55,296 bases of DNA from an uncultured Fidelibacterota bacterium (lineage in GTDB: Bacteria > Fidelibacterota > UBA8477 > JABMPR01). The stretch lies in the NCBI GenBank assembly GCA_937888365.1, contig CALBFA010000048.1, positions 1-55,296 on the forward strand. Reading direction: 5' to 3'. The notes beneath the pieces were generated by a model. The model was not told where the DNA came from and ran no database searches. It saw nothing but the letters and a program-made list of their open reading frames with translations. The position numbers and the translations under genes were made by a program. Position 1 is the first letter of the stretch. Each line of letters starts with the position of its first letter. Positions 7,659 to 45,625 of the stretch are shown piece after piece.

Positions 7659-7668
7659 TCACTAATAT

Positions 7669-9239: not shown

Positions 9240-9253
9240 TGGTGCTTCTGCAT

Positions 9254-25887: not shown

Positions 25888-25892
25888 GTAAA

Positions 25893-26891: not shown

Positions 26892-26924
26892 AAAAAGAGC
26901 TCGGAATTACCGGGCTCTTTTTTA
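26892..26924 (+). terminator. Rho-independent terminator of the sigma-factor operon
   Basis: AAAAAGAGCTCGG pairs with CCGGGCTCTTTTT (one wobble pair) around AATTA, followed by more T residues. Confidence 0.85.
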
Positions 26925-27226: not shown

Positions 27227-27238
27227 GTGAGTATGCTA

Positions 27239-30200
27239 ATGAAACGTTTATTTCAAATTATTTTTTTGTTTGCCATGACATCATGGGCTTTTGCAGGTAC
27301 GACAGGTAAAATTTCGGGTAAAGTCACTGATTTAGAAACAGGTGAACCCCTAATTGGTGTTAATATTATCCTTGAAGGTACAAATATTGGTTCGACGACG
27401 GATGCTGATGGCTACTATGCAATACTCAATATCTCTCCAGGTATTCATTCAATTTCCGCGAGTATGATTGGCTATGGCCGGCAATCTGTAACGAGAATAC
27501 GTGTTGAGATCGACCGCACAAGCACGACGGATATGACATTATCGTCTGTTGTGATTGAAGGGAAAAGTGTCGTCGTAACGGCGCAACGAGAAGTTATTAA
27601 AATGGATGTGGCAGCAAGCCAACGATCTATCTCTGCTGAATCGATAGAAGGATTACCCGTTTCGGATGTTGCGCAAGTAATAACACTGCAAGCAGGTGTA
27701 TCTGGATTTTCTGTACGCGGTGGTTCAAGTTCCGAAACGACATTTATAGTTGATGGCATCGCCATGAAAGATGAACGGAATAACGCCCCTATAACGGGGA
27801 TTCCATTAAGTGCTATCAATGAAATCTCAGTGCAAACCGGCGGATTTAACGCTGAGTATTCAAACGTTCGTTCAGGTATTGTAAATGTGGTCACAAAAGA
27901 AGGTTCAAAAACTAAGTACTCAGGTACATTTTCCATCAAACATAGCCCCGCAGCCCAAAAGCATTTTGGCGACTCGCCGTATAATGGAAATGCCTATTAC
28001 TTGCGACCTTATTTGGATCCCGCCGTCGCTTTTACGGGCACAACCGTCGGAGAGCCTTATACCGACGCGAATGGAAACGGATATTGGGACGAAGGTGAAT
28101 CTTTTGTTGACTATAACAATGACGGAAATAGAACGTATTGGGACAAATATGAACAACGTCAGTATTTTAAATTTAATGGATGGAATTATATCGCCGAAGA
28201 ATCGCTGAAAAATGAAAATACGGATGATGATATCTCGCCAAGTGGAGCACAGGATGTGTTTAAATGGGAGCATCGTAAACCGGGTGAAATTGTAAATCCT
28301 GATTATGTTATTGATTTAGGCTTTGGTGGTCCCGTTCCCCTTAGCCAAAATTTTGGCAATTTAAGGTTTTATGTGTCCTACATGCAAGATCAAGACATGT
28401 ATCTATATCCTGTCTCGACACATGGCGTTAATCGCAAAACATTTATGCTTAAGATGACATCTGACTTGTCACCAACTATGAAACTCGTATTCACATCCAT
28501 TAACAGTAATTTTACGGCTACGACCTCTTCGAGTGGCGGCGGAACAAGCTATATGAGTAGTGTTTGGAATCTTGGATCCGCTGTTAATAGCGCTGGTTTT
28601 ACAACGCCTTGGCGACTTTATACAAACGATTATTGGGCACCGACTGATGTAAGTAATGGTACATTTGCCCTCAAATTAACGTCTCAAACGACGTCAGAAT
28701 CCTATTATGAAATTGGGATTTCCCATATAACATCCGACTATTTGACAGAAGCGGGTCCGATTCGCGATACGAGTGCTATAAATGAAATATATGACGGGAA
28801 ATTTTTAGATGAAGCCCCATACGGTTTTTGGGGCGAGCCTATTGCATCCATAGAAGGCACGCTGAACATGGGAGGAGCCGTTAGTACCTCTCGTGACTAT
28901 TCCAAAATTGCCTCAACCGTTATTGAAGCTGATTATGTCAATCAAATACATAAAAATAATGAAATTAAGCTTGGTGGCGAAATAGCCTTTACGAACCTTC
29001 GTCTTGAGTTTGGTTCGATTAATTATTTTCTACCTGAAGGAAATTATTATACCGTAACAGACAAAAATCCCTGGCGAATGAATTTATATGCTCAAGATAA
29101 ATTGGAGTATGAAGGATTTATAGCCATCATGGGATTAACATTTGATTATACCGACGCCAACACACAATGGTATGATTTAGACGTCTATGATGAGAGCTTT
29201 TTTTCGGATAAATATGATCCTGATACAGAATATAATATGAAGGATATTAAGCCCGTTTTAAATATTAATCCTCGTTTAGCTTTATCACATCCCATTACGA
29301 CGACTTCGAAGCTTTATTTTAATTACGGCCATTTCCGTCAAAGTCCAACAATGGAAAATCTATATCGCATTCGACGAAAAGTGACGATAAACTCGGATCA
29401 CGAAATTGACGGCTATGGTGATTTACAATTCATCGGTGACCCTTCACTTAAACAACCCAAAACTATATCCTATGAACTGGGATATGATCATGCGTTATTT
29501 GAGAAATATTTAATCCATATTTCGGCCTATTATAAAGATATCTCGGATCAAGAAAATTGGACGAGCTATCAAAATATTGCTGGAAACATTAGCTATTCTC
29601 AACTTACCGCTAAAAATTATGAGGATATTCGTGGTTTTGAAATTGAAGTTGGCAAAAATTATGGTGAGTGGATGACAGGACTCGTCAATTATGAATATCG
29701 CGTCAGTACAAGTGGATATTTTGGAACGAATCAGTATTTCGAAAGCCCCAGTGATCAACGTGATTATAATGACCGAGTCTTAAAACAAAGTAAACCAAGA
29801 CCACAACCACGTATGAAATCAGTTTTAAATATTCATACTCCAAAGACATTCGGACCTAAAATTTTGGGTGAAAATCTTTTAGGTGGTTGGAATTCTAGCT
29901 TTGTGGGTACCTGGACTGCTGGAAGTTATTTCACTTATAGTAATTATACACCTGGAGTCCTTTATAACCTGCGATACAAAGATAGTTATAATGTTGATTT
30001 ACAGATGGCGAAAACGTTCGTCTTTGGAGACATGAAATTGAAAGTCTTCGCGGATATTAAAAATCTCTTTAATCAAAAGAATTTTTCAGGCTATGGTTTT
30101 TCGGATGGCTTTGATTATGACTATTATATGCAGTCACTTTTATTATCGGACAACATACGAGAAGAAATTAATCTCCCGATTTTTCCAGGACTCAAAAAAA

Positions 30201-30490
30201 ACGATATACCTGGAGACATGCGTGATTCAGATGTTGAGTTTGTTCCTTTTGAATGGCGTTCTGATATTACGAACGAAAATAATCCAGAAGAAAGACCCAT
30301 TTATTATGATGCAACAAGCGATCGGTATATGCAATATGACCATATTTTGGGATGGGCGGAAGTCTCAAATGATCAACTAAATGAGGTCGTTTCGAGCAAA
30401 GCCTATATTGATAATCCAAATCACGGAAGTTTCATCTTTTTGAATCCTAGAGACATCTTTTTTGGCATAAACCTTAGTTACGATTTTTAA
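27239..30490 (+). CDS. TonB-dependent receptor 1 (carboxypeptidase-regulatory domain, plug, barrel)
   Basis: A large outer-membrane receptor of about 1,083 residues. A signal peptide (MKRLFQ to about 20, ending AFAG) is followed by a carboxypeptidase-regulatory-like domain (about 24-105), with the typical GVNIILEGTNIGSTTDADGYY segment. The plug (about 120-215) has SVRGGSSSETTFIVDG and RSGIVNVVTKEG. The barrel ends on LSYDF, with the terminal Phe needed for barrel assembly. SusC-like import of a polymer or complex substrate is the family role. The frame opens at a GTG at 27227; the ATG at 27239 fits the signal peptide. It is followed at 2-30 bp by its exoprotein partner and has a close paralog at 34684. 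Confidence 0.9.
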   Translation: MKRLFQIIFLFAMTSWAFAGTTGKISGKVTDLETGEPLIGVNIILEGTNIGSTTDADGYYAILNISPGIHSISASMIGYGRQSVTRIRVEIDRTSTTDMTLSSVVIEGKSVVVTAQREVIKMDVAASQRSISAESIEGLPVSDVAQVITLQAGVSGFSVRGGSSSETTFIVDGIAMKDERNNAPITGIPLSAINEISVQTGGFNAEYSNVRSGIVNVVTKEGSKTKYSGTFSIKHSPAAQKHFGDSPYNGNAYYLRPYLDPAVAFTGTTVGEPYTDANGNGYWDEGESFVDYNNDGNRTYWDKYEQRQYFKFNGWNYIAEESLKNENTDDDISPSGAQDVFKWEHRKPGEIVNPDYVIDLGFGGPVPLSQNFGNLRFYVSYMQDQDMYLYPVSTHGVNRKTFMLKMTSDLSPTMKLVFTSINSNFTATTSSSGGGTSYMSSVWNLGSAVNSAGFTTPWRLYTNDYWAPTDVSNGTFALKLTSQTTSESYYEIGISHITSDYLTEAGPIRDTSAINEIYDGKFLDEAPYGFWGEPIASIEGTLNMGGAVSTSRDYSKIASTVIEADYVNQIHKNNEIKLGGEIAFTNLRLEFGSINYFLPEGNYYTVTDKNPWRMNLYAQDKLEYEGFIAIMGLTFDYTDANTQWYDLDVYDESFFSDKYDPDTEYNMKDIKPVLNINPRLALSHPITTTSKLYFNYGHFRQSPTMENLYRIRRKVTINSDHEIDGYGDLQFIGDPSLKQPKTISYELGYDHALFEKYLIHISAYYKDISDQENWTSYQNIAGNISYSQLTAKNYEDIRGFEIEVGKNYGEWMTGLVNYEYRVSTSGYFGTNQYFESPSDQRDYNDRVLKQSKPRPQPRMKSVLNIHTPKTFGPKILGENLLGGWNSSFVGTWTAGSYFTYSNYTPGVLYNLRYKDSYNVDLQMAKTFVFGDMKLKVFADIKNLFNQKNFSGYGFSDGFDYDYYMQSLLLSDNIREEINLPIFPGLKKNDIPGDMRDSDVEFVPFEWRSDITNENNPEERPIYYDATSDRYMQYDHILGWAEVSNDQLNEVVSSKAYIDNPNHGSFIFLNPRDIFFGINLSYDF

Positions 30491-30516
30491 GATTGAAAAA
30501 TATGGAAAATACAACT

Positions 30517-32583
30517 ATGAAAAAACTTTTGAATCACACATTAAATACTCTCATATTTTCAATTCTATTGATGTCTTCAATGACTGTTTTCGGTGGAGAA
30601 ATCAAATGGATGGCTGTAGGCTCACTTCAGAATTGGTATTCGGATAATGGATGCGAAGTCGAGTTGGGTCGAACAGGGAATATTCCTGACCAACAAGACG
30701 GTATGAGATATCCTGCACTATATAAAATGCAAGATAGCCAAGCTGCGAAAGGACTCTGGGTTGGTGCCAAAAATTATAGTAACCCCATAACCAATACAAC
30801 TTACGATTACAAAGTCATCCACATGGGCACAAGAGGTCCCATCAATAACAAGTTGGAAATTTTTCCTCAAACACTCAAGATGTGGGCGAGAGAAGCACAT
30901 CCCGAAGTATTTGTGGATGGCGATCCAGCCAGCGATTTGGTCTATCTTGATAAAATTGATGAAGTTGACCCGAATTTACCATCGGATCGAATGATTGAAA
31001 ATATTGTTAATACATCCATTGGTGTGACGATAACACGAAAAGTGTATGCTTTCACGAATCAATATCATGAAAATTATTTTATCCATGACTACGTGTTTGA
31101 GAATACAGGTATCTATGATTTAGAGGGGAATGTCAATCAGCAAGATTTGGAAGATGTCATGTTCTTTTATCAATATCGCTACGCTATTTCTAGAGAAGGC
31201 GGCCCTTATGGCGAGGCAGGATATTGGCTTCCACAAAATTCGAGCTGGGGTCGAAATACTGTGAATGAAGCCATCGGTGAAAATCCTACTGACAATGATC
31301 CATTTCGGGCTGTTTACGCGTGGCATGGATTACATAGTCAGGCAGCGTATGACAATATAGGTGCTCCATATTTTGGTGGTGATGGTCACCTCGGAGCATC
31401 GCAATTTGTCGGTGTTGCAACATTGCATGCAGACACAGACGCTGGAAATGAATCAGATGATGTCTATCAACCTATGACAACGCAATTTACGGGATCTGAC
31501 AATAATATTAACCAAAATAATGACCAATTTAATGCGTCTAAAATGCAAGATCAATATAATGCAATGGTGGCGGGACATCCTGCAGGAGGTACCCACGCCG
31601 AGCAAATTGGTTCTGGTTTTGCCGACGCATTTGGCGATGACGCAGGGGGCATTTCATCAGCTCTTGGATATGGGCCCTACAGCCTGGCATTTGGCGAAAG
31701 TATCCATATTGTGCAGGTGGAAGCCGCTGCTGGTTTATCAAGAGCGCAATGCTATGTAATTGGTGCAAATTGGATTGACGAAGCGATAGCGACAGGCGAC
31801 TTAAGGTTGCCAGACGGGACGGTTCCTGCAAGCAAAGACGAATATAAAGATACCTGGGTTTTTACGGGAGAAGATTCGTTGATGCAGACTTTCCAACGTG
31901 CGACAGATAATTATGATTTTGATTTTTCTGCTTCAATTCCACCACCTGCACCAGATAATTTTACGGTGACATCAGGTGGAGACAGAATAACATTGAGTTG
32001 GACGAATAATGCGGAATCTTGGTCTAATTTTGCGGGTTACGAAGTATATAGAGCCATCCATAAAACAGATACGACTTTTACGAAAATTTTTACGTGTGAT
32101 TTAAATACTATAACAAATGAATTTGTAGACAAATCAGCGAAGCGGGGATTTGATTATTATTACTACATCCAAAGTTATGATGACGGAACTAGCAATACGG
32201 ATGACCCTGGAGTTGCGTTAAAATCGAATCTGTTTTTAACATTAACCAATAAAGCTGCAAATTTAAAACGTCCACCTTCAGACGGACTTGATGACATTAG
32301 AATTGTACCGAATCCCTATATTATTTCAGGACAGAAATATCAATTTGGCGAAAGTGGACCTGATAAATTAATGTTTTATAATTTACCACCTGCATGTAAG
32401 ATTCGAATATTTACAGAGCGTGGTGACCTGATTGAGACAATTGATCATACGGATGGAAGTGGGGACGAAAAATGGAATTCAATTACGCAATATAAGCAAT
32501 TAATCGTAAGTGGAATTTATATTGCCCATTTTGAACTGCCTGATGGTAAGTCAACTTTTAAAAAATTTATTATTATTCGCTAA
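30517..32583 (+). CDS. Exported exoprotein 1 with FN3-like and type IX-like C-terminal domains
   Basis: A protein of about 688 residues paired with receptor 1. A signal peptide (MKKLLNH to about 24) precedes a large unrecognised body (to about residue 480). A fibronectin type III-like domain (about 485-580, with RITLSWTNN and DYYYYIQSYDDG) follows. The C-terminal domain has IRIVPNPY, IRIFTERGDLI and SGIYIAHF, and ends KKFIIIR, like type IX sorting domains that direct secretion to the cell surface. Starts at TTG 30493 and ATG 30502 are also possible; none has a good ribosome site. The paralog at 37578 has the same architecture. The function is unknown; a surface-exposed substrate binder is inferred. 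Confidence 0.8.
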   Translation: MKKLLNHTLNTLIFSILLMSSMTVFGGEIKWMAVGSLQNWYSDNGCEVELGRTGNIPDQQDGMRYPALYKMQDSQAAKGLWVGAKNYSNPITNTTYDYKVIHMGTRGPINNKLEIFPQTLKMWAREAHPEVFVDGDPASDLVYLDKIDEVDPNLPSDRMIENIVNTSIGVTITRKVYAFTNQYHENYFIHDYVFENTGIYDLEGNVNQQDLEDVMFFYQYRYAISREGGPYGEAGYWLPQNSSWGRNTVNEAIGENPTDNDPFRAVYAWHGLHSQAAYDNIGAPYFGGDGHLGASQFVGVATLHADTDAGNESDDVYQPMTTQFTGSDNNINQNNDQFNASKMQDQYNAMVAGHPAGGTHAEQIGSGFADAFGDDAGGISSALGYGPYSLAFGESIHIVQVEAAAGLSRAQCYVIGANWIDEAIATGDLRLPDGTVPASKDEYKDTWVFTGEDSLMQTFQRATDNYDFDFSASIPPPAPDNFTVTSGGDRITLSWTNNAESWSNFAGYEVYRAIHKTDTTFTKIFTCDLNTITNEFVDKSAKRGFDYYYYIQSYDDGTSNTDDPGVALKSNLFLTLTNKAANLKRPPSDGLDDIRIVPNPYIISGQKYQFGESGPDKLMFYNLPPACKIRIFTERGDLIETIDHTDGSGDEKWNSITQYKQLIVSGIYIAHFELPDGKSTFKKFIIIR

Positions 32584-32594
32584 GGGTTAAAAAC

Positions 32595-33650
32595 ATGATA
32601 AAATTAAAGAATGAAACAAAATGGACTCAGTTATTCAGTTTGATTTTGATAAGCATCGGTTTGCTTTTAGGATGTGAACAAATAATGACTGCTGAAAGTG
32701 ACTATCAAAAAACAGACTATACGATGTCGGGTAATGATTTAGAGGCTTGTGATCAGTTGAGTCAAGTCTCGGTTCAGATTGACACCGCAAATGGTTTAAG
32801 AAAATTTGGCCCTCAATGGAATGTCAATAATATTGAAACAAAAGCGCTTCTAAGGTCTGAAAGAATCGGGAATTCCTGGATTAATGAAGATGTTGAAGTC
32901 GCGGCAGACCTATTTGTAGTAGTCGATGCTGACACAAATTATGGAGCATTTGCAATTTTAAGCGCACGGGTTTCACAGGTTGAAGGTAGCGGCGAATTAG
33001 TTGCGGATAGCATTATTATCATATACAAATATCTCGCAAAACCAGCTGTCAATTTTGATACAGTTACGGCAGATACCGTGTTAATTGAATATGCAAGTGA
33101 ATCTATATTTTATCTTGATTTGGAGAATGGTTTAGTCAGTGCGTCAGGAAATTGGACCCTTCGTTTTAATGCATCCAATATTGCTTTAAATACTGATATT
33201 CGAGTGGCTCGTATAGAAAAGAAAGCTTTTGCGGATTTACATGCGGTTCCGAACAAAGTATTTATTGGAGACGGTTTGGGGATTGATGCAGCGATTGCTT
33301 ATTTAGAGACCTATAATAATTATTATTTAGATACGGACTCTACTTATCAAGTGAAAATTGTCTCGAGTGAGGCAACAGGATATATGCTTTTTGATTGCAC
33401 TGATTTAGGTGAGAATTCCTATTCGATTTATACGACGGATTATATGGATATAAAGTTATTCGATACGGATGGCATTGGTGTGAATGCATCAAGCGAGGCC
33501 ATTAGTACTGTTACCATCGCGAATTGCGCCGACATCAAAACGAAGGAAATATACAAATTAGCTGCGCAAAAATATTTAGTTCAATTTCGCCCAAGTCAAC
33601 AAATGGTGACGAATATTTTTAACGTCGCTATTCTACTAGGAGGCGAATAA
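32595..33650 (+). CDS. Lipoprotein of unknown function in the receptor locus
   Basis: A 351-residue lipoprotein: signal peptide with lipobox LLLGC (cysteine near residue 27) and an acidic, strand-rich mature part without a recognised domain. It begins 11 bp after the exoprotein gene and its stop overlaps the next start by one base (TAATG), so it belongs to the same operon. By position it matches the lipoprotein at 39739 in the second unit, though the two are not obviously similar. SusD-like binding is possible but no SusD signature is visible. Confidence 0.7.
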   Translation: MIKLKNETKWTQLFSLILISIGLLLGCEQIMTAESDYQKTDYTMSGNDLEACDQLSQVSVQIDTANGLRKFGPQWNVNNIETKALLRSERIGNSWINEDVEVAADLFVVVDADTNYGAFAILSARVSQVEGSGELVADSIIIIYKYLAKPAVNFDTVTADTVLIEYASESIFYLDLENGLVSASGNWTLRFNASNIALNTDIRVARIEKKAFADLHAVPNKVFIGDGLGIDAAIAYLETYNNYYLDTDSTYQVKIVSSEATGYMLFDCTDLGENSYSIYTTDYMDIKLFDTDGIGVNASSEAISTVTIANCADIKTKEIYKLAAQKYLVQFRPSQQMVTNIFNVAILLGGE

Positions 33651-34669
33651 TGAAAACGCCAGAATCCCAAGGATTAAAAATGTATAAATCGATTCTAATA
33701 ATCGGACTCTTTGTATTTTCAGCGACTTCTACATTTGCACAAATCAAACTTGCCCAAACAGGTGCACAATTTTTAAGCGTCGGTTCCGATGCGCGCGCTG
33801 CGGGAATAGGCGAATCAATGACGGCAAATGCCCTTGGATCAGCTTCATTATTTTATAATCCAGCCGGCATGGCAAGTTTATCAAATGAATTTGAGTTTTC
33901 AGCCAGTCAAAACAGATGGATTGCAGACATTTTGCATAATTCATTTTCCATTGCTTTAAAAATCAATAATGATGATCGGTATGGCGTATTTGGAGCTTCA
34001 ATGATGAGCGTGGATTATGGCGATATTCAAGGAACAGTCGTTTGGCCAAATGACCCAGGATTTATCGATACAGACATCTTAACTCCTACGGCTAAAATGA
34101 TTGGTTTTGGCTATGCAATCGCACTGAATGACAAATTTTCAGTCGGAGGACAAGCAAAATATATTGGACTAAATTTCGGCTATTCTCTTTATCCTGATGC
34201 GGAAGGAAATCCTACACTCACCAAAAAGAATTTGCTCTTTGCCAATGGATTCGACTTTGGAACCCTCTATCGAACAGGGTGGAAAACCCTCGCATTTGGT
34301 ATGTCTGTTCGAAATTTTTCCAATGAAGTAAAGTTTGAAGAAGAAGGATTTCAACTCCCTCTGACTTTTTCGATGGGCTTATCCATGGATGTATTTGATT
34401 TAATATCAGAAACTCATAAAGGTCATAATTTGCTCGTTTCTATTGATGCATTGCATTATCGCGCTCGACCTGAACAAGTTCGCATTGGTGCGGAATATAC
34501 GCTATCAAATTCCTTTTCGCTCCGCAGTGGGTATCAATCGAATACTGACGAAACAAGCATGTCTTATGGCTTTGGATTGAATTTATTTGGTATCAATTTA
34601 GATTACGCCTATACACCTTTTGGTATTTGGAATGAAGTGCAACGATTCACGATTCGATTTGGGATTTAG
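33650..34669 (+). CDS. PorV/PorQ-like outer-membrane protein (UPF0164 family)
   Basis: A 339-residue barrel of the PorV/UPF0164 family. After a signal peptide (about 11-30, ending TFAQ) comes the family N-terminus GAQFLSVGSDARAAGIGES with SASLFYNPAGMA (about 44-78). FadL-like strands follow, and the barrel ends RFTIRFGI. PorV is the shuttle of the type IX secretion system that carries cargo with C-terminal sorting domains to the attachment complex. The ATG at 33650 has an excellent AGGAGG site 6 nt before it. Its position between two receptor/exoprotein units suggests it serves these exoproteins; that is inference. Confidence 0.85.
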   Translation: MKTPESQGLKMYKSILIIGLFVFSATSTFAQIKLAQTGAQFLSVGSDARAAGIGESMTANALGSASLFYNPAGMASLSNEFEFSASQNRWIADILHNSFSIALKINNDDRYGVFGASMMSVDYGDIQGTVVWPNDPGFIDTDILTPTAKMIGFGYAIALNDKFSVGGQAKYIGLNFGYSLYPDAEGNPTLTKKNLLFANGFDFGTLYRTGWKTLAFGMSVRNFSNEVKFEEEGFQLPLTFSMGLSMDVFDLISETHKGHNLLVSIDALHYRARPEQVRIGAEYTLSNSFSLRSGYQSNTDETSMSYGFGLNLFGINLDYAYTPFGIWNEVQRFTIRFGI

Positions 34670-34683
34670 TTAAACACAATTAC

Positions 34684-37581
34684 ATGTCAAACGCCTTCAA
34701 AGATAGCATTATAATTCTTCTTTTTTTGACGTCGCTAATAGGCGGCCAGACGGGGAAAATATCAGGGATTGTGCTTGATAAGGAGACTCAAGAACCTCTC
34801 ATTGGTGTGAATGTCATTATTAAAGAATTGTTATTGGGTGCTTCAACCGATGAACGAGGATATTATTCCATTCTCAATGTGCAACCAGGCGTCTATTCTA
34901 TAGAAATTGCCATGATGGGATATACTAAAATTATCCAAGAAAATGTCGAAGTGACGATGAATATTACGACGGTTATTGATGCAAAATTATCACCGAGTAT
35001 TGTGGGCATGCAGACGATTCATGTTATTGCTGAAAGACCTGAAATTGTCAGAGATATTTCTGGATCTCAACTCACTATCAAGTCAGGCAAAGTTCGAACC
35101 TTGCCCATAAAAGATATCACTGAAGCAATTGGTTTGCAGGCAGGTATCGAGGATTTTGTTATTCGCGGAGGAAGTAGTCGTCAAACAGCTTTTATGCTTG
35201 ATGGCTTTCAAATGGCAGATGAACGTTCAAATCTCCCCATTACGACTTTAAGTTTAAACTCGGTGCAAGAGATTCAAATACAAACTGGCGGATTTAGTGT
35301 TGAATATGGTAACCTTCGTTCTGGTGTCGTAAATATTGTAACAAAAGAGGGCGCTAGAGACCACTATTCTGGTGATGCAACAATACAATATAAAGCGCCT
35401 CAAGCAAAAAATTACGATCGATCGATCTATGGAAACGAATCCTATTATCTCCGGTCATATCTGGATGATGACGTTGCATTTGTTGGTACTACAAATGGTG
35501 GATGGAGCGACAGTTTACAAGCGCAATATCCTTACTTTGAGGGATGGAACGCCGTTTCATTATCAACATTAGCGGACACCGACCCAAGCAATGATTTATC
35601 GCCAAATGGTGCGAAGCAGCAATTTCTATGGGAACACCGCAGAAATGGTTCTATTACACAACCGGATTATTCAATGGATTTATCTATAAATGGTCCATTT
35701 CCTGCATTCTCAAAAAACATGGGAAATTTGAGGTTTTCCTTGAGCCATTATAGAGAAAAACAGATGTTTGTCATTCCCTTATCTCGCGATGCTTATGAGC
35801 AAAATACGACTCAATTAAAACTGACAACGAGTTTTAAAACATCCATTAAATTGACATTGATGTGGCAATATGGTACGGAATATTCCGTTTCTCCTTATAA
35901 CTGGGATTTGCCAACAGGCACTGTTTTAAAATCCACAAATTCGATTGCTAGTCTTGTAAGCGGTGGAAATAATGTTGTCTTTATGCCGGGATATTTTAGC
36001 CCTACGACATTGACACGGGCTATGTTTGGTATAAAAATGAATCACATGTTGAGCTCGAATTCTTTCTATGAAGTACTTTTTCAACAGACAAATAATAAAA
36101 CAAATACTTTTCAACTCCCTGAACGCGATTTCACAAAGAATATCGAATTATTTGATGGATTTTACGTTAACGAAGCACCTTATGGATATGATTCGGAAGA
36201 GTGGATGAATCTTGGCAGAGATACAACTAAAAATTCGACATCCATATTTAAAATAGACTTTACGCGACAATTGAATCAAAGAAATCAAATCAAAACAGGA
36301 CTCTCAATCGTTAACAATGATTTTCGAATCGCATCCTACACCGAAAGTGATAAAGCAACTTGGACGCGTGATATGCATTATCAAGTCACACCGTTTCGAT
36401 TTGCGGCATATTTCCAAGACAAATTAGAGTTCGAAGGATTTATTGCGAATATTGGTTTACGCGGTGAATATAGCAATCCACAAACTTCCATTTATGATTT
36501 AACAGATTACGACCCATTTTATACAAAAGGGACGGGCTTTGAAATTGAGAAAGAGGCTCCTGTCTTAGATTCTAAACCCGTTTTTATCTTAAGCCCGAGA
36601 CTAGGTATATCGCATCCATTAAGTGATAAGGCTAAACTCTATTTCAATTATGGTCATATGAACTCTGAAGCATCATCAATTTATCGATTTACATTGCAAC
36701 GTGAAGCAAACGGCATGGTGACAAATATGGGGAATCCAAATTTATCCCTCGAACGAACCATTGCCTATGAGTTAGGATATTCGCAATCGATTTATGATGA
36801 CTATTTAATAAATGTTGCAGCTTATTATAAAGATGTTACCAATCAACCAGGATGGATTTCTTACCGAAGCGTTGACAATACCATCAATTACCTGAAAGCT
36901 GAAAACAATAATTATGCTGATATTCGTGGATTTGAAATGACCCTTGATAAAACAAGAGGAAAATGGATAAAAGGCTTTGTAAACTATACCTACATGATAG
37001 AAACATCTGGATATTTTGGTATAACGCAAAATTATCAAGATCCAGCGAAACAATTGGAATATATAAAGAGCGATCCTTTAACGTCCAAACCAGCTCCACA
37101 GCCCTTCTTTAGAGCCAATCTTGAGCTTTTAACGCCAGAGAACTTTGGACCCCATGTTGGCGATACCTATTTACTAGGGAGTTGGAATGCTTCTTTCATA
37201 TATACTTACAAAACTGGTTCATATTTTACGTATAATCCATCGAATATTCCTGATCTTTATAATAATGTGCAATGGAGAGATTACACGAACGTAGATATGA
37301 GAGTACAAAAGCATTTCAAATATGAAAACTATGTTTTAGATTTATTCGTTGATGTTTCAAACGTTTTAAACTCAAAATATTTAAGCTATTCAGGATTCTC
37401 TGATAATAGAGACTATAATTCATATATGAAATCATTGAAATTTGATTGGGAAGAGGGCGATGATAAAGGAAATGATCGAGTTGGGGACTATGAAGGTAAC
37501 TATATCAATATGCCCAATATTTCTTCCATGACATTTTTGAATCCTCGTTCATTGACATCAGGCATAAGGTTTTCATTTTGA
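34684..37581 (+). CDS. TonB-dependent receptor 2 (paralog of receptor 1)
   Basis: A 965-residue outer-membrane receptor. Signal peptide to about residue 21, carboxypeptidase-regulatory-like domain (about 24-105, GVNVIIKELLLGASTDERGYY), plug (about 120-220, VIRGGSSRQTAFMLDG and RSGVVNIVTKEG) and a barrel ending GIRFSF. Clear collinear similarity to the 27239 gene runs along the whole length (for example NMGNLRFSLS against NFGNLRFYVS and SYELGY-type strand motifs), so one arose by duplication. It lacks an insertion of about 50 residues after the plug that receptor 1 has. Its stop overlaps the TTG start of the next gene. Confidence 0.9.
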   Translation: MSNAFKDSIIILLFLTSLIGGQTGKISGIVLDKETQEPLIGVNVIIKELLLGASTDERGYYSILNVQPGVYSIEIAMMGYTKIIQENVEVTMNITTVIDAKLSPSIVGMQTIHVIAERPEIVRDISGSQLTIKSGKVRTLPIKDITEAIGLQAGIEDFVIRGGSSRQTAFMLDGFQMADERSNLPITTLSLNSVQEIQIQTGGFSVEYGNLRSGVVNIVTKEGARDHYSGDATIQYKAPQAKNYDRSIYGNESYYLRSYLDDDVAFVGTTNGGWSDSLQAQYPYFEGWNAVSLSTLADTDPSNDLSPNGAKQQFLWEHRRNGSITQPDYSMDLSINGPFPAFSKNMGNLRFSLSHYREKQMFVIPLSRDAYEQNTTQLKLTTSFKTSIKLTLMWQYGTEYSVSPYNWDLPTGTVLKSTNSIASLVSGGNNVVFMPGYFSPTTLTRAMFGIKMNHMLSSNSFYEVLFQQTNNKTNTFQLPERDFTKNIELFDGFYVNEAPYGYDSEEWMNLGRDTTKNSTSIFKIDFTRQLNQRNQIKTGLSIVNNDFRIASYTESDKATWTRDMHYQVTPFRFAAYFQDKLEFEGFIANIGLRGEYSNPQTSIYDLTDYDPFYTKGTGFEIEKEAPVLDSKPVFILSPRLGISHPLSDKAKLYFNYGHMNSEASSIYRFTLQREANGMVTNMGNPNLSLERTIAYELGYSQSIYDDYLINVAAYYKDVTNQPGWISYRSVDNTINYLKAENNNYADIRGFEMTLDKTRGKWIKGFVNYTYMIETSGYFGITQNYQDPAKQLEYIKSDPLTSKPAPQPFFRANLELLTPENFGPHVGDTYLLGSWNASFIYTYKTGSYFTYNPSNIPDLYNNVQWRDYTNVDMRVQKHFKYENYVLDLFVDVSNVLNSKYLSYSGFSDNRDYNSYMKSLKFDWEEGDDKGNDRVGDYEGNYINMPNISSMTFLNPRSLTSGIRFSF

Positions 37582-39704
37582 AAATATCGAGAATATACAA
37601 ACGATCATTTATTATCGTGCTTGTTTTAATGACTCATTCGTTGTTGATGGCTCAAGTCGATGAAAATTTGAAACGTTATATCCGAATCGGAAATTTGCAG
37701 AGTCATTTTTCGGCTTATGGATCTGAAAGAGCTTGGAATAATGACTATTACGAAGGCCTTCAATGGCCCGCTCTTTATCCACAACAAGACAACGCTGTTA
37801 TAAAAAGGGCTTGGATGGGTGTAGAAGATTTTACAGATGAATCGGGCTATAATTGGGGACATTATAGTTTGTATGTCGCTCAAGATGCAACAGGCATAGC
37901 GGTTTTTCCAATGGAATTGACACAATCTGCGAAATTTGAAAACCCCATCGTTTATGTCGATGGAACAGACATCAATGCCGTTTTTGCCAATCAAATTGAT
38001 TATATAGACGAAGCTCAAGTAGCCGATAGGATTGTTTCAAATGTTATTAATACTTCAATGGGATTGACCCAGAAGAGAGATATATACGCATTTAGTCAAG
38101 AATATCATGACGACTATTTTATTAAAGTCTATACCTTCACAAATACAGGGAATACAGACTGGGACGACGATATTGAACTAAACGCACCTTTGAAAGGTGT
38201 CCGAGTAGGATGGGGAACACGATATTCCTTGGGACGAGAAGCAGCCTATATTATTGGATACGAGCAATCATATGGTGCTCATTCTTGGGTCTCTCGCCGG
38301 GGTGAGGATTATATCGACCATCAAAATGATTTAATAACAGAAGCGAACTCCGTGGCGGATTGGCTGAGAGCTGGTTTTTCTTGGATGGGACAATCCGAAA
38401 CAAATGATTATAACAATATTGGGGCGCCTGACGTCAAACGAGACGGAAGATTGACTTCGCCAAACCATGCTGGCTCTGTCGTTTTACATGTTGACAAATC
38501 AAGTACCGATGCAGCCGATGATGCCTTTCAACCGACGTTTCTTGGTTGGCATGCAGGTGATCGCTATCCTAAGGTTGAAGATTTACGCTCATACAATGAA
38601 CCAGAAATGTTTCAGGTTTACGAAATGTTACGCGGAATTCCTTTTGGTGATGGTAGCGGCGGACAGACTCGAATGGAAACCCTCGCAGCTGATCCAGATA
38701 GTTACGATCCTTGGCACTTGCACAATGATGGTGGCGGTACAAATGTTATGATAACCTACGGCCCTTTTGATCTCGCACCGGGTGAAAGTATTGTAATCGT
38801 TGAGGCTGAAGGTATCAACGGATTAGATCGAGACATGTGCGAATTAATTGGTCAACGTTGGAAGAAAGCCTACGATAACAGTAGCGATAGTGGACCATTT
38901 GATCTGCCCGACGCCTCAACTACGACGGATAAAGATATTTATAAAAATCAATGGGTTTATACAGGACGCGATTCTATTTTAAAAACATTCGGTCGTGCTA
39001 AACGAAACTATGAAAGTGGATTTGGGATATCGAGCCCACCTCAACCACCCCCCTTATTTAATGTTAAATCTGGCGGTGATCGTATCACTCTTGAATGGAA
39101 TGCAAGTCCATCTGAATCAGATCCAAATTTTGGGGGATATCGAATTTTTAGAGCCATCGGGAAAAAAGATACGACTTATAAAGAAATATTTGCATGCGGC
39201 TTTGGAGCAGAGAATGACATCCGATATAGTTTCAGTGATATTTCCGCTGTTAGAGGGCAAGCTTACTACTATTACATATCATCATTTACCGATGGTTCTG
39301 GGAATCAAAATGATTTAAATCCTACTGGGATATTACAGAGTGGAAGATTTTATACACTCACAACGAAACCTGCCTACTTGCAACGCGAGGCAGTTAATAT
39401 TTATACGAAGGGTGATTTCCCTCGTATTCGTATTGTGCCAAATCCATATAATATCAGAGGGAATGGATTTACGGGGGAAAAGAATAAAATCATGTTTTAT
39501 GATATTCCTGGCAAATGTACAATTCGCATCTTTTCAGAACGCGGAGATCTCATTAAGACAATAGAGCATGATGATGGAAGTGGCGATCAGGAATGGTATC
39601 TAACCACAGATACACGGCAAACAATCGTTAGTGGGGTTTATGTCGCACACTTTACAGATGATAAAGGTCAAATGGCCTACGAAAAGTTTATAGTAATTCG
39701 TTAA
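37578..39704 (+). CDS. Exported exoprotein 2 (paralog of exoprotein 1)
   Basis: A 708-residue paralog of the 30517 product. Signal peptide (to about residue 26, ending LLMAQ), N-terminal block with RIGNLQSHFS and QWPALYPQQDN, a long body, FN3-like domain (about 490-595, SGGDRITLEWN and QAYYYYISSF), and a type IX-like C-terminus (IRIVPNPYNI, IRIFSERGDLI, SGVYVAHF, ending EKFIVIR). No ATG lies near the start; a TTG at 37578 overlaps the receptor 2 stop codon and is preceded by AAGG, so coupled translation is likely. It presumably works with receptor 2 at the surface. Confidence 0.82.
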   Translation: MKISRIYKRSFIIVLVLMTHSLLMAQVDENLKRYIRIGNLQSHFSAYGSERAWNNDYYEGLQWPALYPQQDNAVIKRAWMGVEDFTDESGYNWGHYSLYVAQDATGIAVFPMELTQSAKFENPIVYVDGTDINAVFANQIDYIDEAQVADRIVSNVINTSMGLTQKRDIYAFSQEYHDDYFIKVYTFTNTGNTDWDDDIELNAPLKGVRVGWGTRYSLGREAAYIIGYEQSYGAHSWVSRRGEDYIDHQNDLITEANSVADWLRAGFSWMGQSETNDYNNIGAPDVKRDGRLTSPNHAGSVVLHVDKSSTDAADDAFQPTFLGWHAGDRYPKVEDLRSYNEPEMFQVYEMLRGIPFGDGSGGQTRMETLAADPDSYDPWHLHNDGGGTNVMITYGPFDLAPGESIVIVEAEGINGLDRDMCELIGQRWKKAYDNSSDSGPFDLPDASTTTDKDIYKNQWVYTGRDSILKTFGRAKRNYESGFGISSPPQPPPLFNVKSGGDRITLEWNASPSESDPNFGGYRIFRAIGKKDTTYKEIFACGFGAENDIRYSFSDISAVRGQAYYYYISSFTDGSGNQNDLNPTGILQSGRFYTLTTKPAYLQREAVNIYTKGDFPRIRIVPNPYNIRGNGFTGEKNKIMFYDIPGKCTIRIFSERGDLIKTIEHDDGSGDQEWYLTTDTRQTIVSGVYVAHFTDDKGQMAYEKFIVIR

Positions 39705-39738
39705 CACAAGCATTAGATGATTAAAAAGGAAAAGTTGT

Positions 39739-40986
39739 ATGAATAGTAAATGGAAAATAATGACAGGGGTATCAATTCTGATAGCTCTAATGATTTCAGG
39801 TTGTGACTATAAAGCGGAGCCAAATTTATATGACCCGAATGAAAAAGGAGCAACGACTCCGGACATTGTATCGATAACACCTGATAGCAATTTTAGCGCT
39901 GAGGATATTACATTTGCGGGAGAAGGGGTTGTGAAGATTGACGGCCATTATTTTTCCAACGAGAAAAGCTTTAATATTGCATATTTTGACGGAGTGACGG
40001 GAAAAGTATTGGATGCGACTGAGACATCACTTCGCGTAAAAGTACCCTATGTCATTGGCGATTCTGTCAATGTAAAAGTGTCTGTTCAGGATGCCTTTAA
40101 TTTCGGGCAATATGGTAGCCCGCTTCCAATTATGGCGGCGGATGTAGAAATTGGAGGCTTTGACGAATATACACTCAGCATGTTTTCCGTTACAGCAGAC
40201 AATGACGAAAATATTTTTGTTTCGACGGGTACGGAAGTTCGTATGATTGCTCCAGACAGCATAACAACAAATTCTTTGCATAATTCGACCATATTTTCTG
40301 GCATTAGTAGCATGAAAATGGGTCCCGATGGATATATCTATTTTATTCAAGCGACGGCACTTTCTCGATTTACACCATTGGGAGTCAGTGAGAGTCTTTG
40401 GTTTAAAATTTTGGCTAAAGGAGCAACCGATCTAGATTTTGCGTCTGCTAATGAGCTATATATTTCCACTCGATCAAGTGGGTCTCCTTCTTTTGCAGAT
40501 ATTTATCTGTTTAAAATGGATACAGGGACCTATACGGCATTCCCACTTTTTGAAAATATGCATACGACGTCTATCCGAGTCTATGATGGTGCTTTATATG
40601 TTGCAACAAATTATATCGGAACCGATTCTTTAGCGTATAAAAATGCCGTATGGAAATGTACGATTCTCGGCGATAGTCTTTCAAGTCCAGAGCTATATGC
40701 TAATTTTGATGACTACGATGCGAGTGGAGATACAAAAATATCCGCTATTACTTTTTCAGAAATTGGTGTATTGTATATTGGGACAACTTCGGGTCCAGCA
40801 TTATTGAAATATGAAAACGGTAACTATATAACAGTTTATAACGACATTCTTACGGGGCCAACGAAGTCCTTTGTTTGGGGGAATGGGACCTATTTATACA
40901 TGGTACGTTTGGCTTCTGCGAATGGAACGCAAAGGGTCGTGAGAGTCGATTTAAGAGAAGAAGGTGCACTTTACTTCGGGCGTTAG
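39739..40986 (+). CDS. Lipoprotein with IPT/TIG-like and beta-propeller-like regions
   Basis: A 415-residue lipoprotein: lipobox MISGC (cysteine near residue 22), then an IPT/TIG-like immunoglobulin fold (about 40-130, with ITFAGEGVVKIDGHYFSN and TETSLRVKVP). Repeated segments of NHL/SMP-30 type follow (DENIFVSTGTEVRMIAPD, GPDGYIYFIQ, ANELYISTRS), suggesting a propeller. A clear AAAAGGAAAAG site precedes the ATG. It is the last close-set gene of the second receptor unit and may be the surface binding lipoprotein. The propeller resembles that of the neighbouring type IX cargo at 41084. Confidence 0.75.
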   Translation: MNSKWKIMTGVSILIALMISGCDYKAEPNLYDPNEKGATTPDIVSITPDSNFSAEDITFAGEGVVKIDGHYFSNEKSFNIAYFDGVTGKVLDATETSLRVKVPYVIGDSVNVKVSVQDAFNFGQYGSPLPIMAADVEIGGFDEYTLSMFSVTADNDENIFVSTGTEVRMIAPDSITTNSLHNSTIFSGISSMKMGPDGYIYFIQATALSRFTPLGVSESLWFKILAKGATDLDFASANELYISTRSSGSPSFADIYLFKMDTGTYTAFPLFENMHTTSIRVYDGALYVATNYIGTDSLAYKNAVWKCTILGDSLSSPELYANFDDYDASGDTKISAITFSEIGVLYIGTTSGPALLKYENGNYITVYNDILTGPTKSFVWGNGTYLYMVRLASANGTQRVVRVDLREEGALYFGR

Positions 40987-41083: not shown

Positions 41084-42391
41084 ATGAAAAAAATGTTACT
41101 CGTAGTCCTAGCATTGGTTCTTTCAGTAAGTATGACCTTTGCTGGATGGGAATTTGATCACGTTTTTGCAGCATATGATCTACCTGTAAGTGATAGTTAT
41201 GGTATGCATGGTGTTGCAGTTGATGGTGCCGGAAATGTATGGTATTCCATGTACAATTATTCAACGGCTGATTTATACGCAGCCAATGGTGATACTATTG
41301 CTGTGTACGAAGTTTTTGCTACGCAACCTGATGGAACACCTTTATCGTTTTCACCTATTAACGTCTTAGATTTCAATGGTACACTTGATACTTTAGTGAG
41401 TTCATGTCGCGGTATGGAAACAGCTGATGACGGTAATATCCTTTACTCTGTTGGTGGAAAAATGTATAAAATTAATGCAACAACGGGTGCAGGAATAGCT
41501 ATGTATGATTTTCCTGGCGTTACTGGTTCATTAACATGTCCAGCAGTTGCTGCCAATGGTGACATCTATTTAGGTACCGTTGGACAAGGTAATCCTGTTA
41601 AAATCTTGAACTCGGATTTAACCGAAAAAGCTGACGCAATCGCATCATTTTCGGGTGCTTACACGAGATCGGTTGCTGTGAGTGCTGACGGAACAGATCT
41701 ATATTTTGGTTCAACATGGAACGGTATTGGTATTCGTCATTTTCATAGTGACATACCAGGCGTTTTACCATATGATTCTGCTAGCACCATAGGTGGATGG
41801 CAAGTTGATGACACAACTTTTCAATCATTGTGGCCAGAAGCCGTTGATCTAGGACCTGACGGCAATTTGTATGCTGCCAATACACAAATTGCTTTTACAA
41901 ATGATGTTGATCATGGTTCACTCTATTGGGTATATGGTACGGACGGTACTGAAAAATACTCTTTTGGTACTGCAGAAGGTGATTCAACTGCAGGTGGTAT
42001 GTACAATGGACGTGGTTGTGCTTGGTCTGCAGATGGAAACACAATGTATGTAGCAGATTTTGGCTACAATTGTCTTACGGTTTGGACATCAACTCCTGAC
42101 GCTATCGATAGTCCTGTTTCAATTCCTAGTGCTTTTGAATTAAATCAAAACTATCCAAACCCATTCAACCCAAATACAAACATTCCTTTTACGCTTGAAG
42201 AAGAAGGAATGGTTAAGTTGATAGTTTATGACGTAGTTGGACGTGAAGTAGCAACTCTAGTTAATGAAAATATGACTTCAGGTACGCATGTTGTTTCTTT
42301 TAGTGGTGCTGATTTAAGCGCCGGTATGTATATTTACAAAATTTCATTTAATGGTGAAGTTTCTGCAAAGAACATGCTTCTTATTAAATAA
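41084..42391 (+). CDS. Type IX secretion cargo with beta-propeller-like domain
   Basis: A 435-residue secreted protein. Signal peptide (about 1-19, ending TFAG), then NHL/SMP-30-like propeller repeats (about 25-340, such as GVAVDGAGNVWYSM, PAVAANGDIYLG and AVDLGPDGNLYAAN). The C-terminal sorting domain (about 350-435) has NYPNPFNPNT, VYDVVGREVATL, LSAGMYIYKI and KNMLLIK, the standard type A form for secretion and surface attachment. The start has AAGGAGAAG. It lies about 100 bp after the second receptor unit and ends at a strong terminator. A binding or enzymatic role for the propeller cannot be decided. Confidence 0.85.
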   Translation: MKKMLLVVLALVLSVSMTFAGWEFDHVFAAYDLPVSDSYGMHGVAVDGAGNVWYSMYNYSTADLYAANGDTIAVYEVFATQPDGTPLSFSPINVLDFNGTLDTLVSSCRGMETADDGNILYSVGGKMYKINATTGAGIAMYDFPGVTGSLTCPAVAANGDIYLGTVGQGNPVKILNSDLTEKADAIASFSGAYTRSVAVSADGTDLYFGSTWNGIGIRHFHSDIPGVLPYDSASTIGGWQVDDTTFQSLWPEAVDLGPDGNLYAANTQIAFTNDVDHGSLYWVYGTDGTEKYSFGTAEGDSTAGGMYNGRGCAWSADGNTMYVADFGYNCLTVWTSTPDAIDSPVSIPSAFELNQNYPNPFNPNTNIPFTLEEEGMVKLIVYDVVGREVATLVNENMTSGTHVVSFSGADLSAGMYIYKISFNGEVSAKNMLLIK

Positions 42392-42413
42392 TACTTTTCT
42401 TCAGTATTGTTTG

Positions 42414-42444
42414 AAAAAAGTCCTGCTGTCGCAGGACTTTTTTT
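42414..42444 (+). terminator. Rho-independent terminator of the receptor locus
   Basis: AGTCCTGC pairs with GCAGGACT around TGTC, flanked by A- and T-runs. It closes the transcription unit that begins near 27 kb. Confidence 0.9.
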
Positions 42445-42520: not shown

Positions 42521-45500
42521 ATGCATCGCTTAATTTTAATATTCATCACAATTACTATGCTAATAAGCACCGTCGTAGGGCAAACGAACAATACGGAATT
42601 TCGTGCTACGTGGGTTATAACGTGGGAACACATAAATAGATATGATAGCGTTGAAGAAAACATGGCTCGCATTCGTCAAATTATGGATAATCACGTGGCA
42701 GCAAATATGAACGCTGTTTTATGGCAAGCCAGGCAAAGTGGTACGGCTTACTATTCATCCAGTTATGAACCTTGGGGATATTACGCTGGCGAAGTATATC
42801 CTGGTTATGATCCACTCGAATATGCGATTGGACAAGCGCACTTGAGAGGTTTAGAATTACATGCTTGGGTCAATGCGTTTCAAGCCGCATCAACTTCTGT
42901 TGGTACACCCTCTTATGAGCACCCAGAATGGGTGTGTCGCGACCAATCAGGGATAGCAATGCCATCCTATAGAGCTCTTTCACCCGGGTTGCCTGAAGTC
43001 AGGAATTATCTTAAGAATGTCGTTATGGAAATTGTAAATAATTACGATGTGGATGGTATTCATTTGGACTATGTTCGATGGAACGAATATGACAATTTAC
43101 TTTCAAGTCGCGAAGAAATATCAGAAGTAGAACAAATTAGGAAGCTCGATGGTGATATTTCCCAAGATGATCTCGATGCATTATTAAACCCTCAAAGTGG
43201 GCGTTATTTATACGATGTAAACCATCCATATAACAGTGGAGTGCCATCAGGTTTTTCGAGCTGGGAAGATTGGTGGAGAAGCTCTGTAACGTCATTTGTC
43301 GAATCCGTCCACGACTCAATTCAAGTTGTAAAACCTCATGTTAGATTATCAGCTGCTGCTTTAGGAAAATACAATTGGAGTGGTTGGAACGGCTATAATG
43401 TCGTTTATCAGGACGCCGCGCTTTGGTTTAATGAGGGATATATTGACCAACTTACACCCATGCATTATCATTGGACAACGTCGAGTGGTTTTTATGGAAT
43501 GTTGGAGGGAGATTGTCCGAATTGCTGGAGTCAATTTATTCAACCCGGTATTGCTGCTGGACGACTTTTTTCCGTTGGACCCGGTTCTTACATATTGGCT
43601 GAGAATAATGTTTGGAGCCGACATTCTTCCATTGTTAATAGTTCTCGTACTGTTTCTTGGGTCGATGGTTTTCAGTTCTTTTCGTATGGAAGTTGGCAGG
43701 ATTATCAATATTGGCCCATTGCAGGAGAATCATTTTTTGATCAAAAAACTAAAATTCGTCCAATAAATAATAACTCAACACCTCCGATGCAACCCGCTCT
43801 AAGTATTAATCAAATTAATAGTTTAGAATATTTTATTACACTTACACCGAACGATACCGAGATGGCAAATATGTGGAACATTTTGTATCGATCCACTGAT
43901 GCCAATGGGACAACCGAAAATTCGGAAGTTTATGGCGTTTATTTTGGATATGAGCCAATTGTTGTAAATGAATCGTTTGACGGCACTCAAGATCATAATG
44001 ATAGTTACTACTATTTTGCATCAACAGCGAATCGATATTGGAATGAATCAATTGTATCAAATACGAGTGCATCAGCGCCTCTCATTTCGTATCCACCTGT
44101 TGTTACGAGTACTTTGCCTCAAAATGATGCAATTGTGAGTGTTAATTCACCTATCGAAATTCAATTTTCTAAAACGATGAGTACGGTAATTCCTGATGGA
44201 GCCATCACAATTACACCACTCATTACAGACCAATCTTACACGTGGAACGCCACTCAAAAAATACTCCAAATTCATCATTCACAACATCTTAACTTCAATG
44301 AAATATATACAATTCTCATAAATGAAAGTTTGGCCGATATTAATGGTCGAAGTTTTGATGGAGATGGTGATGGTTTGGAAGGTGGTAGCTATAGCTTTAG
44401 TTTTTCAACGATGAGTGAGGATATTAGCGGCCCAATCATTATCCAATCCGTACCACCTTTAGATGGTAGCGAAGAATCATTTTTTAACGATGGCGTTTTT
44501 ACGCTTGTTTTTGATGAACTTGTTGATCACGCTTCGATTAATTTAGATAATATTTCCGTTGATAACAATCAAATGACAAATTTTCAATTACTCAAAGTTG
44601 ACATGAATAATCAAACTATCGTGTCATTTAAGCAGTATGATCCAATTAACCCAGGCAATTCATATCTGTCAATTTATCCTGCCATTGCGGACACGCTAGG
44701 CAACGTAATGACAGAAACTCTCTTAATACCCTTTACGGTTTCAGAATATGGCCTTGGAACGACAACATTAATTGATGCATTTTTATCGTCGGGGAACTGG
44801 TGGGATCCCGAGGGGAGTGGATCTACTATTGGAACCATCGGAGGCGAAACAGTTTTTGGATATTCCAATAGTATTTATATCCCTGCATCTTCACCTTATC
44901 CATCGGGTTTAAAATCATCCTATATCAATTATTCATGGGATACTTCAGCATCGACTCATTTATTACGTGAGTACCTTTCAGGCGGTGCTCCAAGAAATAT
45001 CCTTTTTAATGCAACCCAAACGCTTCAATGTTATGTATTTGGCGATGGTTCGAACAATAAATTTAGATTCGCCATTGATGAAGGTGATGGATTTAGCTGG
45101 CCTGGTCATGAAGTGTCCACTTGGTTTGATATTAATTGGGTCGGATGGAAATTGATTGAGTGGGATTTATCTGATCCGACCCAAGTTGGTAATTGGATTG
45201 GAAACGGTATTTTGGATGCCACCGACTACCGTTTTGATAGTTTTCAAATGACGTGGAATGGTGAAACAAATGCGACCTCAGGTCGAATATATTTAGATGA
45301 ACTAAGAGTTGTTTCAAAAGTTTCGCTATTGAATGTCGGTGACAAAGAACCCATTGCCATAGAGGCATTTTCCCTCGGCAACCCCTATCCGAATCCCTTT
45401 AATGCAAGCATTCGCATCCCTTTCTACTTGCCTTCAAATGGCCCTGTCAGTCTTCGGATAATTGATCCAATCGGTCGAGAAATTGATGACATACAAAATG

Positions 45501-45625
45501 GATATCAAAATGCTGGAGATCATGAAGTAGTATGGAATGCTGCCAATCTATCATCTGGCGTTTACTTTGTGGTTGCGCAATACGGAAATGTGACTTCGAC
45601 CAAACGCATCTTAATGATAAAATAA
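42521..45625 (+). CDS. GHL10-type glycoside hydrolase with Ig-like domains and type IX sorting domain
   Basis: A 1,034-residue secreted enzyme. Signal peptide (about 1-20), then a GHL10/DUF187-type TIM barrel (about 24-410), with FRATWVITWEHINRYDS, AYYSSSYEPWG and DGIHLDYVRWNEYD; the last motif carries likely catalytic acids. Two SbsA/Big_5-like Ig domains (about 528-640 and 645-740, with PLDGSEESFFNDGVFTLVFDE) follow, then a jelly-roll-like segment (about 745-940) and a sorting domain (NPYPNPFNAS to RILMIK). The family acts on polysaccharides or peptidoglycan-related glycans; the substrate here is unknown. Start context is CGAGGAAAAC-ATG. It is separated from the receptor locus by a terminator. 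Confidence 0.85.
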   Translation: MHRLILIFITITMLISTVVGQTNNTEFRATWVITWEHINRYDSVEENMARIRQIMDNHVAANMNAVLWQARQSGTAYYSSSYEPWGYYAGEVYPGYDPLEYAIGQAHLRGLELHAWVNAFQAASTSVGTPSYEHPEWVCRDQSGIAMPSYRALSPGLPEVRNYLKNVVMEIVNNYDVDGIHLDYVRWNEYDNLLSSREEISEVEQIRKLDGDISQDDLDALLNPQSGRYLYDVNHPYNSGVPSGFSSWEDWWRSSVTSFVESVHDSIQVVKPHVRLSAAALGKYNWSGWNGYNVVYQDAALWFNEGYIDQLTPMHYHWTTSSGFYGMLEGDCPNCWSQFIQPGIAAGRLFSVGPGSYILAENNVWSRHSSIVNSSRTVSWVDGFQFFSYGSWQDYQYWPIAGESFFDQKTKIRPINNNSTPPMQPALSINQINSLEYFITLTPNDTEMANMWNILYRSTDANGTTENSEVYGVYFGYEPIVVNESFDGTQDHNDSYYYFASTANRYWNESIVSNTSASAPLISYPPVVTSTLPQNDAIVSVNSPIEIQFSKTMSTVIPDGAITITPLITDQSYTWNATQKILQIHHSQHLNFNEIYTILINESLADINGRSFDGDGDGLEGGSYSFSFSTMSEDISGPIIIQSVPPLDGSEESFFNDGVFTLVFDELVDHASINLDNISVDNNQMTNFQLLKVDMNNQTIVSFKQYDPINPGNSYLSIYPAIADTLGNVMTETLLIPFTVSEYGLGTTTLIDAFLSSGNWWDPEGSGSTIGTIGGETVFGYSNSIYIPASSPYPSGLKSSYINYSWDTSASTHLLREYLSGGAPRNILFNATQTLQCYVFGDGSNNKFRFAIDEGDGFSWPGHEVSTWFDINWVGWKLIEWDLSDPTQVGNWIGNGILDATDYRFDSFQMTWNGETNATSGRIYLDELRVVSKVSLLNVGDKEPIAIEAFSLGNPYPNPFNASIRIPFYLPSNGPVSLRIIDPIGREIDDIQNGYQNAGDHEVVWNAANLSSGVYFVVAQYGNVTSTKRILMIK

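Follow-up and report, generated by a model that had tools for sequence, protein, structure and literature searches.

The window analyzed here is the whole stretch of 55,296 nt (contig CALBFA010000048.1, positions 1 to 55,296, forward strand). Positions 27227-42391 hold eight genes, all on the + strand, in the order R1, E1, Lp1, V, R2, E2, Lp2 and P8. The features of the locus, with the evidence for each assignment, are as follows (T9SS, type IX secretion system; CTD, C-terminal domain):

26892..26922 (+), terminator-like hairpin forming the 5' border of the operon and ending the upstream ECF-sigma/lipoprotein unit (13-bp stem, U tract, −18.4 kcal/mol, z −7.2)
27227..30490 (+), R1, TonB-dependent receptor of 1087 aa with an N-terminal CarboxypepD_reg domain, likely start ATG 27239 (PF13715 3.8e-17, PF07715 Plug 2.2e-08)
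30493..32583 (+), E1, exoprotein of 696 aa: signal peptide, super-beta-sandwich body (about 33-480), FN3 (about 485-590) and variant T9SS CTD (about 595-696) (AlphaFold model with pLDDT 88, fold matches, CTD model)
32595..33650 (+), Lp1, lipoprotein of no recognised family (lipobox LLLGC, no Pfam match, synteny)
33650..34669 (+), V, outer-membrane barrel of the PorV/PorQ family, which would shuttle and anchor both E1 and E2 (NF033709 1.6e-51, synteny)
34684..37581 (+), R2, second TonB-dependent receptor, 965 aa (PF13715 7.1e-17, Plug 4.2e-07)
37578..39704 (+), E2, second exoprotein, 708 aa, with an E1-like architecture and a start 4 bp inside R2 (36% to E1; CTD 135 bits to the variant-CTD model)
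39739..40986 (+), Lp2, lipoprotein with an IPT/TIG domain followed by a repeat region (lipobox; PF01833 4.2e-07, weak DUF5008)
41084..42391 (+), P8, secreted protein similar to SMP-30 and ending in an ordinary type A CTD, final gene ahead of the terminator (PF18962 6.2e-08, PF08450 1e-05, synteny)
42413..42444 (+), terminator-like hairpin forming the 3' border of the operon (U tract, −19.5 kcal/mol, z −6.1)
42521..45625 (+), protein resembling GHL10 glycosyl hydrolases, with a type A CTD, a separate unit that is syntenic in close relatives (PF02638 6.3e-37)

The intergenic gaps between R1 and P8 range from −4 to 97 bp, and since strong U-tract hairpins lie on both sides, the eight genes most likely form one transcription unit, while synteny in relatives rules out that their arrangement arose by chance. 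Directly upstream (24423-26867, + strand) lie an ECF-type sigma factor with a GTG start, a small membrane protein where an anti-sigma factor would be expected, a Spy-like protein and a lipoprotein; a terminator separates this unit from the operon, and the relatives that were read have another gene there. Elsewhere in the window, a 1543-aa protein (10224-14855, − strand) was judged by eye to begin like an AMP-binding acyl-CoA ligase and to end like a GNAT acetyltransferase, an unusual fusion.

A first-pass annotation had described two rounds of receptor, FN3-like exoprotein and lipoprotein running in one direction, with the receptors and the exoproteins each forming a pair of clear paralogs. 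This description is borne out: the genes all lie on the + strand at coordinates that hold, R1 and R2 share 37% identity over 974 columns, E1 and E2 share 36% over their full length, and profile comparison backs the FN3 part of the exoproteins with FN3 chains from the PDB, the only kind of match that a PDB sequence search with E returned. Lp1 and Lp2 were also considered as paralogs, a candidate rejected on direct comparison, which shows no relation between them. Lp1 has counterparts in the same place in close relatives (27-33% identity). Orthologs of Lp2 occur in several phyla (79 relatives labelled in loci) within clusters of the type we call R-E-V, that is, a TonB-dependent receptor, an exoprotein with a distinct CTD and a PorV/PorQ-family barrel. 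IPT/TIG domains such as that of Lp2 occur in some surface lipoproteins of Bacteroides uptake loci.

Both receptors carry CarboxypepD_reg and Plug domains above the Pfam cut-offs. R scores far under the SusC/RagA cut-off, with R1 reaching 58 bits in TIGR04056 against 368. The window's genome encodes 18 plug-bearing receptors, 7 of which sit in R-E-V modules, and TonB is present as two TonB_C matches.

The exoproteins E1 and E2 each have a signal peptide and no lipobox. In the AlphaFold model of E1, a super-beta-sandwich with a long helix is followed by the FN3 domain and the CTD. This sandwich has the fold of the N-terminal domains of GH94, GH15 and GH116 enzymes (Z of about 18-19), which in glycoside hydrolases and phosphorylases forms the non-catalytic sandwich, and the catalytic (alpha/alpha)6 domain of these enzymes is absent from the model. 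The modelled fold suggests that the E body binds a carbohydrate ligand; YidC, which is no sugar binder, also has a super-beta-sandwich.

The model of E1 is mainly beta with few helices, as read from its own secondary structure, and thus does not have the helical (TPR) form of a SusD partner. Neither E1 nor E2 matches a SusD family in Pfam or NCBIfam, and the fold matches of E do not include SusD, which by itself proves nothing. Given its beta body and the lack of a SusD family match, E is not a SusD relative. With the two SusD models used, PF07980 and PF14322, neither the window's genome nor any of the 19 members of its family gives a match. The earlier proposal of a Sus-like system with a T9SS protein in the role of SusD therefore stands in part: a conserved R-E adjacency, a T9SS-type CTD and the lack of SusD by these two Pfam models agree with it, but E is unrelated to SusD and R scores far below the SusC/RagA cut-off.

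The C-termini of E1 and E2, previously called type IX-like, score 13.4 and 15.6 bits with the type A model TIGR04183, below its cut-off of 23, but are homologous to the type A CTD by profile comparison (hhalign 95.7%) and share the T9SS CTD fold, so that E is putative T9SS cargo in the wide sense of ending in an Ig-like beta-sandwich homologous to known CTDs. The variant CTDs make up a clade of their own, separate from the type A CTDs sampled in the window's genome, and differ from these in motif, with PNPY where type A has PNPFNP, an insert after PNPY, and an end such as KFxIIR where type A has KMLLLK; this final motif has been linked to PorV binding (PMC10202324). A PDB sequence search with the E CTD gave nothing useful. 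When the CTD is modelled alone (pLDDT 82), the PorZ CTD clearly leads its PDB matches (Z 11.8 over 89 residues, 2.5 Å, 25% identity, E 1.9e-6), and later matches include PorU, mirolase and the translocon-bound CTDs of RemA, RemZ and NucA. PorZ forms a subcomplex with PorQ and requires it for association with the outer membrane (PMC5562754), and the PorZ CTD is retained and binds PorQ (review PMC10202324). A translocon and a sortase are encoded in the window's genome (SprA, 611 bits; PorU, 670 bits).

A single-sequence scan of GTDB contigs with E2 returned no match, while a search with the family alignment succeeded. Relatives of E occur in 59 of the 60 genomes in the phylum sample, and in records named Neomarinimicrobiota, Calditrichota, KSB1, Ignavibacteria/Melioribacteraceae and Bacteroidetes. 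Counting the E genes that are complete and distinct, R lies directly upstream in 116 of 125 with a median gap of 15 bp; the remainder mostly have one small gene between or a contig end, and one, the orphan L066, has a type A CTD. V is found nearby in 64 of the 69 E loci with room to look, and R-E-V loci are seen in Neomarinimicrobiota, Calditrichota, KSB1 and Ignavibacteria records. The first-pass annotation had made its reading depend on receptor and exoprotein being adjacent in relatives, which they are, and had supposed that the arrangement would be uncommon, when in these phyla it is instead common. Members of the E family that end in a type A CTD (L066 and L146-L149) have neither R nor V alongside, in natural contrast to those with the variant CTD.

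E-like N-terminal parts are also found in proteins of about 1460-1550 aa (L146 154-4809, L147 4538-9070, L148 3127-7743 and L149 3438-7814), which have long extra regions, end in an ordinary type A CTD and lack a receptor or PorV-family neighbor. The long frames L146-L150 were considered as fusions of E with R or V and rejected, as the complete ones consist of an E-like N-terminal part, a long extension and a type A CTD.

The module extends beyond recognizable E bodies. The window's genome has six R-E-V loci plus one canonical PorV: the E profile leads, mainly through the CTD, to five further contigs (C9, C41, C106, C101 and C74), on which R is directly upstream, V is directly downstream and the E bodies are quite different. 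In the module on C106 (L177) the receptor is split in two frames (6469-8100 and 8325-9329), by assembly error or because the gene is decaying. Four of the other modules (L176 11390, L177 1727, L178 8658 and L179 4502) have a protein with an ordinary type A CTD immediately after V, which indicates that the module often has a fourth, secreted member. In other genomes, all 20 regions picked from CTD matches whose frames resemble no E read R-E-V in order, two of them with one extra gene between E and V. Among the 150 CTD matches listed from 20 genomes, at least 68 have a V no more than 500 bp downstream on the same strand, where 0.11 would be expected, and at least 88 have one within 3 kb.

With respect to its family, V scores 175.8 bits against the NCBIfam PorV/PorQ-family cut-off of 90, and under the strict equivalog models is neither PorV nor PorQ proper (76 bits against a cut-off of 250 with the PorV model, 66 against 220 with the PorQ model). 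These equivalog cut-offs are tight for this phylum, since the canonical-looking and likely true PorV of the same genome (C104) also falls under the PorV cut-off at 182 bits, as compared to 34-76 bits for the Vs. V does not belong to PorP/SprF, its best family being PorV_fam with no PorP match listed; the V of one other module has a weak PorP match of 23 bits against 90. Seven PorV-family genes of the window's genome pass the cut-off, namely the C104 PorV, V and five that lie directly downstream of CTD proteins, and relatives have up to 26 matches. The PorV-like shuttle gene earlier noted as embedded between the two rounds is thus of the PorV/PorQ family, and its presence is not incidental, V being a fixed third member of the module. 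It is highly improbable that V simply conducts a hydrophobic solute, as ordinary FadL-like channels do, and is unrelated to E export: its weak Toluene_X/FadL match would fit such a role, but its best family is PorV/PorQ and Vs follow variant-CTD proteins far beyond chance, as counted above.

The tandem in the window is old. E1-like proteins fall in one old clade and E2-like proteins in another (SH 0.998 and 1.0), and both occur together in 35 loci of several phyla including Calditrichota and Melioribacteraceae, in the order E1-E2 in 26 and E2-E1 in 9. The separate clades and the 35 shared loci mean that the tandem is an old pairing of distinct units and not a recent local duplication. As the window's two Es have one V, the pairing of E with V is not strictly one to one.

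To compare how the members have diverged, tree distances were correlated over 54 R-E-V triads. The E body and R are the closest pair (Mantel 0.957), and the CTD correlates with V more strongly (0.872) than the body does (0.829). Along E, in segments of 102 columns from the core set, the correlation with V is 0.30-0.49 over most of the body, 0.58-0.62 in FN3 and 0.62 in the CTD, while that with R is 0.79-0.88 along the body and 0.72 in the CTD. This gradient would fit contact of the body with R and of the CTD with V; it is suggestive only, as V lies next to the 3' end of E and R next to its 5' end, and recombination could yield the same pattern. In locus L042 the two Vs are nearly identical although its E genes (4077-6257 and 10962-13106) are not, suggesting gene conversion of V, a process that could also account for the gradient.

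The co-divergence bears on two alternatives to the module reading. E could be a surface enzyme or adhesin held by V, with R importing its products or merely co-regulated and no direct R-E complex. The non-catalytic glycosidase sandwich of the body, the wide variation of E bodies between modules (656-1607 aa) and the occurrence of E bodies with a type A CTD without R would suit this, but we regard it as unlikely, as R is the immediate neighbor in essentially every module, E body and R co-diverge more closely than any other pair, and the catalytic (alpha/alpha)6 part of those glycosidases is absent. Somewhat less likely still is a strict analogue of Sus, in which E is a lid hinged on R as SusD is on SusC and V is a mere transient shuttle. 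The E body is beta-rich and no helical SusD, R is under the SusC cut-off, and a shared shuttle would not need to be fixed in the module as V is, even though E follows R directly as SusD follows SusC, body and R distances correlate so strongly, neither SusD model finds a match in the window's genome, and Lp2 has an IPT/TIG domain.

We favor, at slightly better than an even chance, the reading of R-E-V as a receptor module that makes use of the type IX secretion system, in which E is exported, held by V and serves as capture partner for R. From the presence of SprA, PorU and TonB in the genome we infer that E would be exported by the T9SS, carried and kept by V, and would work with R. E would cross the inner membrane by its Sec signal and exit through SprA by means of its CTD, and the variant CTD, as a distinct branch of the type A fold, would be read by the co-encoded V and not by the canonical PorV of the genome. 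E would then remain bound to V on the cell surface, which would place its body beside the adjacent R, where it may capture a ligand, probably a glycan or a glycan-containing polymer, and hand it over to R for TonB-driven import. In the window's operon, one V would serve two old and distinct R-E pairs, and the two lipoproteins and the secreted protein would be accessories. Established are the order of the genes, the borders of the operon, its conservation, the families to which R and V belong, the fold and clade of the CTD and the presence of SprA, PorU and TonB; the recognition and anchoring by V, the R-E contact, the import function and the glycan ligand are predictions.

The E1/E2 tandem is kept across phyla, which is unusual if a locus serves a single dietary substrate and is compatible with a general ligand or with a role in the envelope. 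It is improbable, however, that R and V form a surface-assembly machine for E, with R aiding insertion, signalling or energising and importing no nutrient. The 35 tandem loci across phyla would suit such an envelope function, and a FadL-type barrel holding a surface protein is known in BamG-BamH (PMC12578637), but the plug domain of R is intact, TonB is encoded in the genome, and R is not found beside the other T9SS cargo that the genome exports.

More broadly, it is conceivable, if a little short of an even chance, that R-E-V represents an additional sorting route of the type IX system, with a CTD class of its own and multiplied PorV/PorQ-type carriers, which across FCB phyla delivers and holds surface partners of TonB-dependent receptors and acts as a T9SS-made counterpart of SusCD where SusCD is missing. 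No published description of the module was found in the open-access journal papers searched on the T9SS, the PorV family, TonB-dependent receptors and these phyla. Term searches of the Caldithrix abyssi and Melioribacter roseus genome papers found no mention of it; the latter reports a separate SusCDE in M. roseus. If the reading is true, there would be receptor-plus-surface-protein complexes built otherwise than the classic SusC/SusD pair, and a second known way to place receptor partners on the cell surface. It would also explain the abundance of PorV-family genes in these phyla (7 in the window's genome, up to 26 in relatives). The order receptor, variant CTD, barrel gives a simple genomic rule for assigning T9SS cargo to a carrier, and bears on how carriers discriminate among cargo and why some CTDs are kept.

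Among known systems, the type B CTD proteins of Flavobacterium johnsoniae depend on SprF/PorP, and there the cargo gene is followed by that of its own PorP/SprF shuttle, with the class of CTD matching the class of barrel (PMC12618676, PMC9143113). R-E-V is similar in that the gene of a putative dedicated shuttle barrel comes directly after the cargo gene, but V is of the PorV/PorQ family, E has a CTD that branches off within the type A fold, and a receptor gene precedes E. The PorZ-PorQ attachment complex of the Porphyromonas gingivalis T9SS is alike in having a surface protein that depends on a PorV-family barrel for association with the outer membrane and keeps its CTD bound, as is predicted for E and V, and the E CTD is structurally nearest to that of PorZ; PorZ-PorQ, however, serves the sortase complex, whereas the E-V pair occurs in several copies linked to TonB-dependent receptors, and E and PorZ have unrelated bodies. 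With SusC/SusD (RagA/RagB) the module shares a TonB-dependent receptor with an N-terminal CarboxypepD_reg domain and the gene of a surface partner right after it, but E is a T9SS-type beta protein with its own barrel, while SusD is a helical lipoprotein, and R is below the SusC cut-off. BtuB-BtuG of Bacteroides illustrates that the surface partner of a receptor need not be SusD-like. It resembles R-E-V in exactly this respect and differs from it in that BtuG is a lipoprotein and no PorV-family barrel is involved. R-E-V is thus comparable to the receptor and surface partner systems SusCD and BtuBG, yet it is no member of SusCD.
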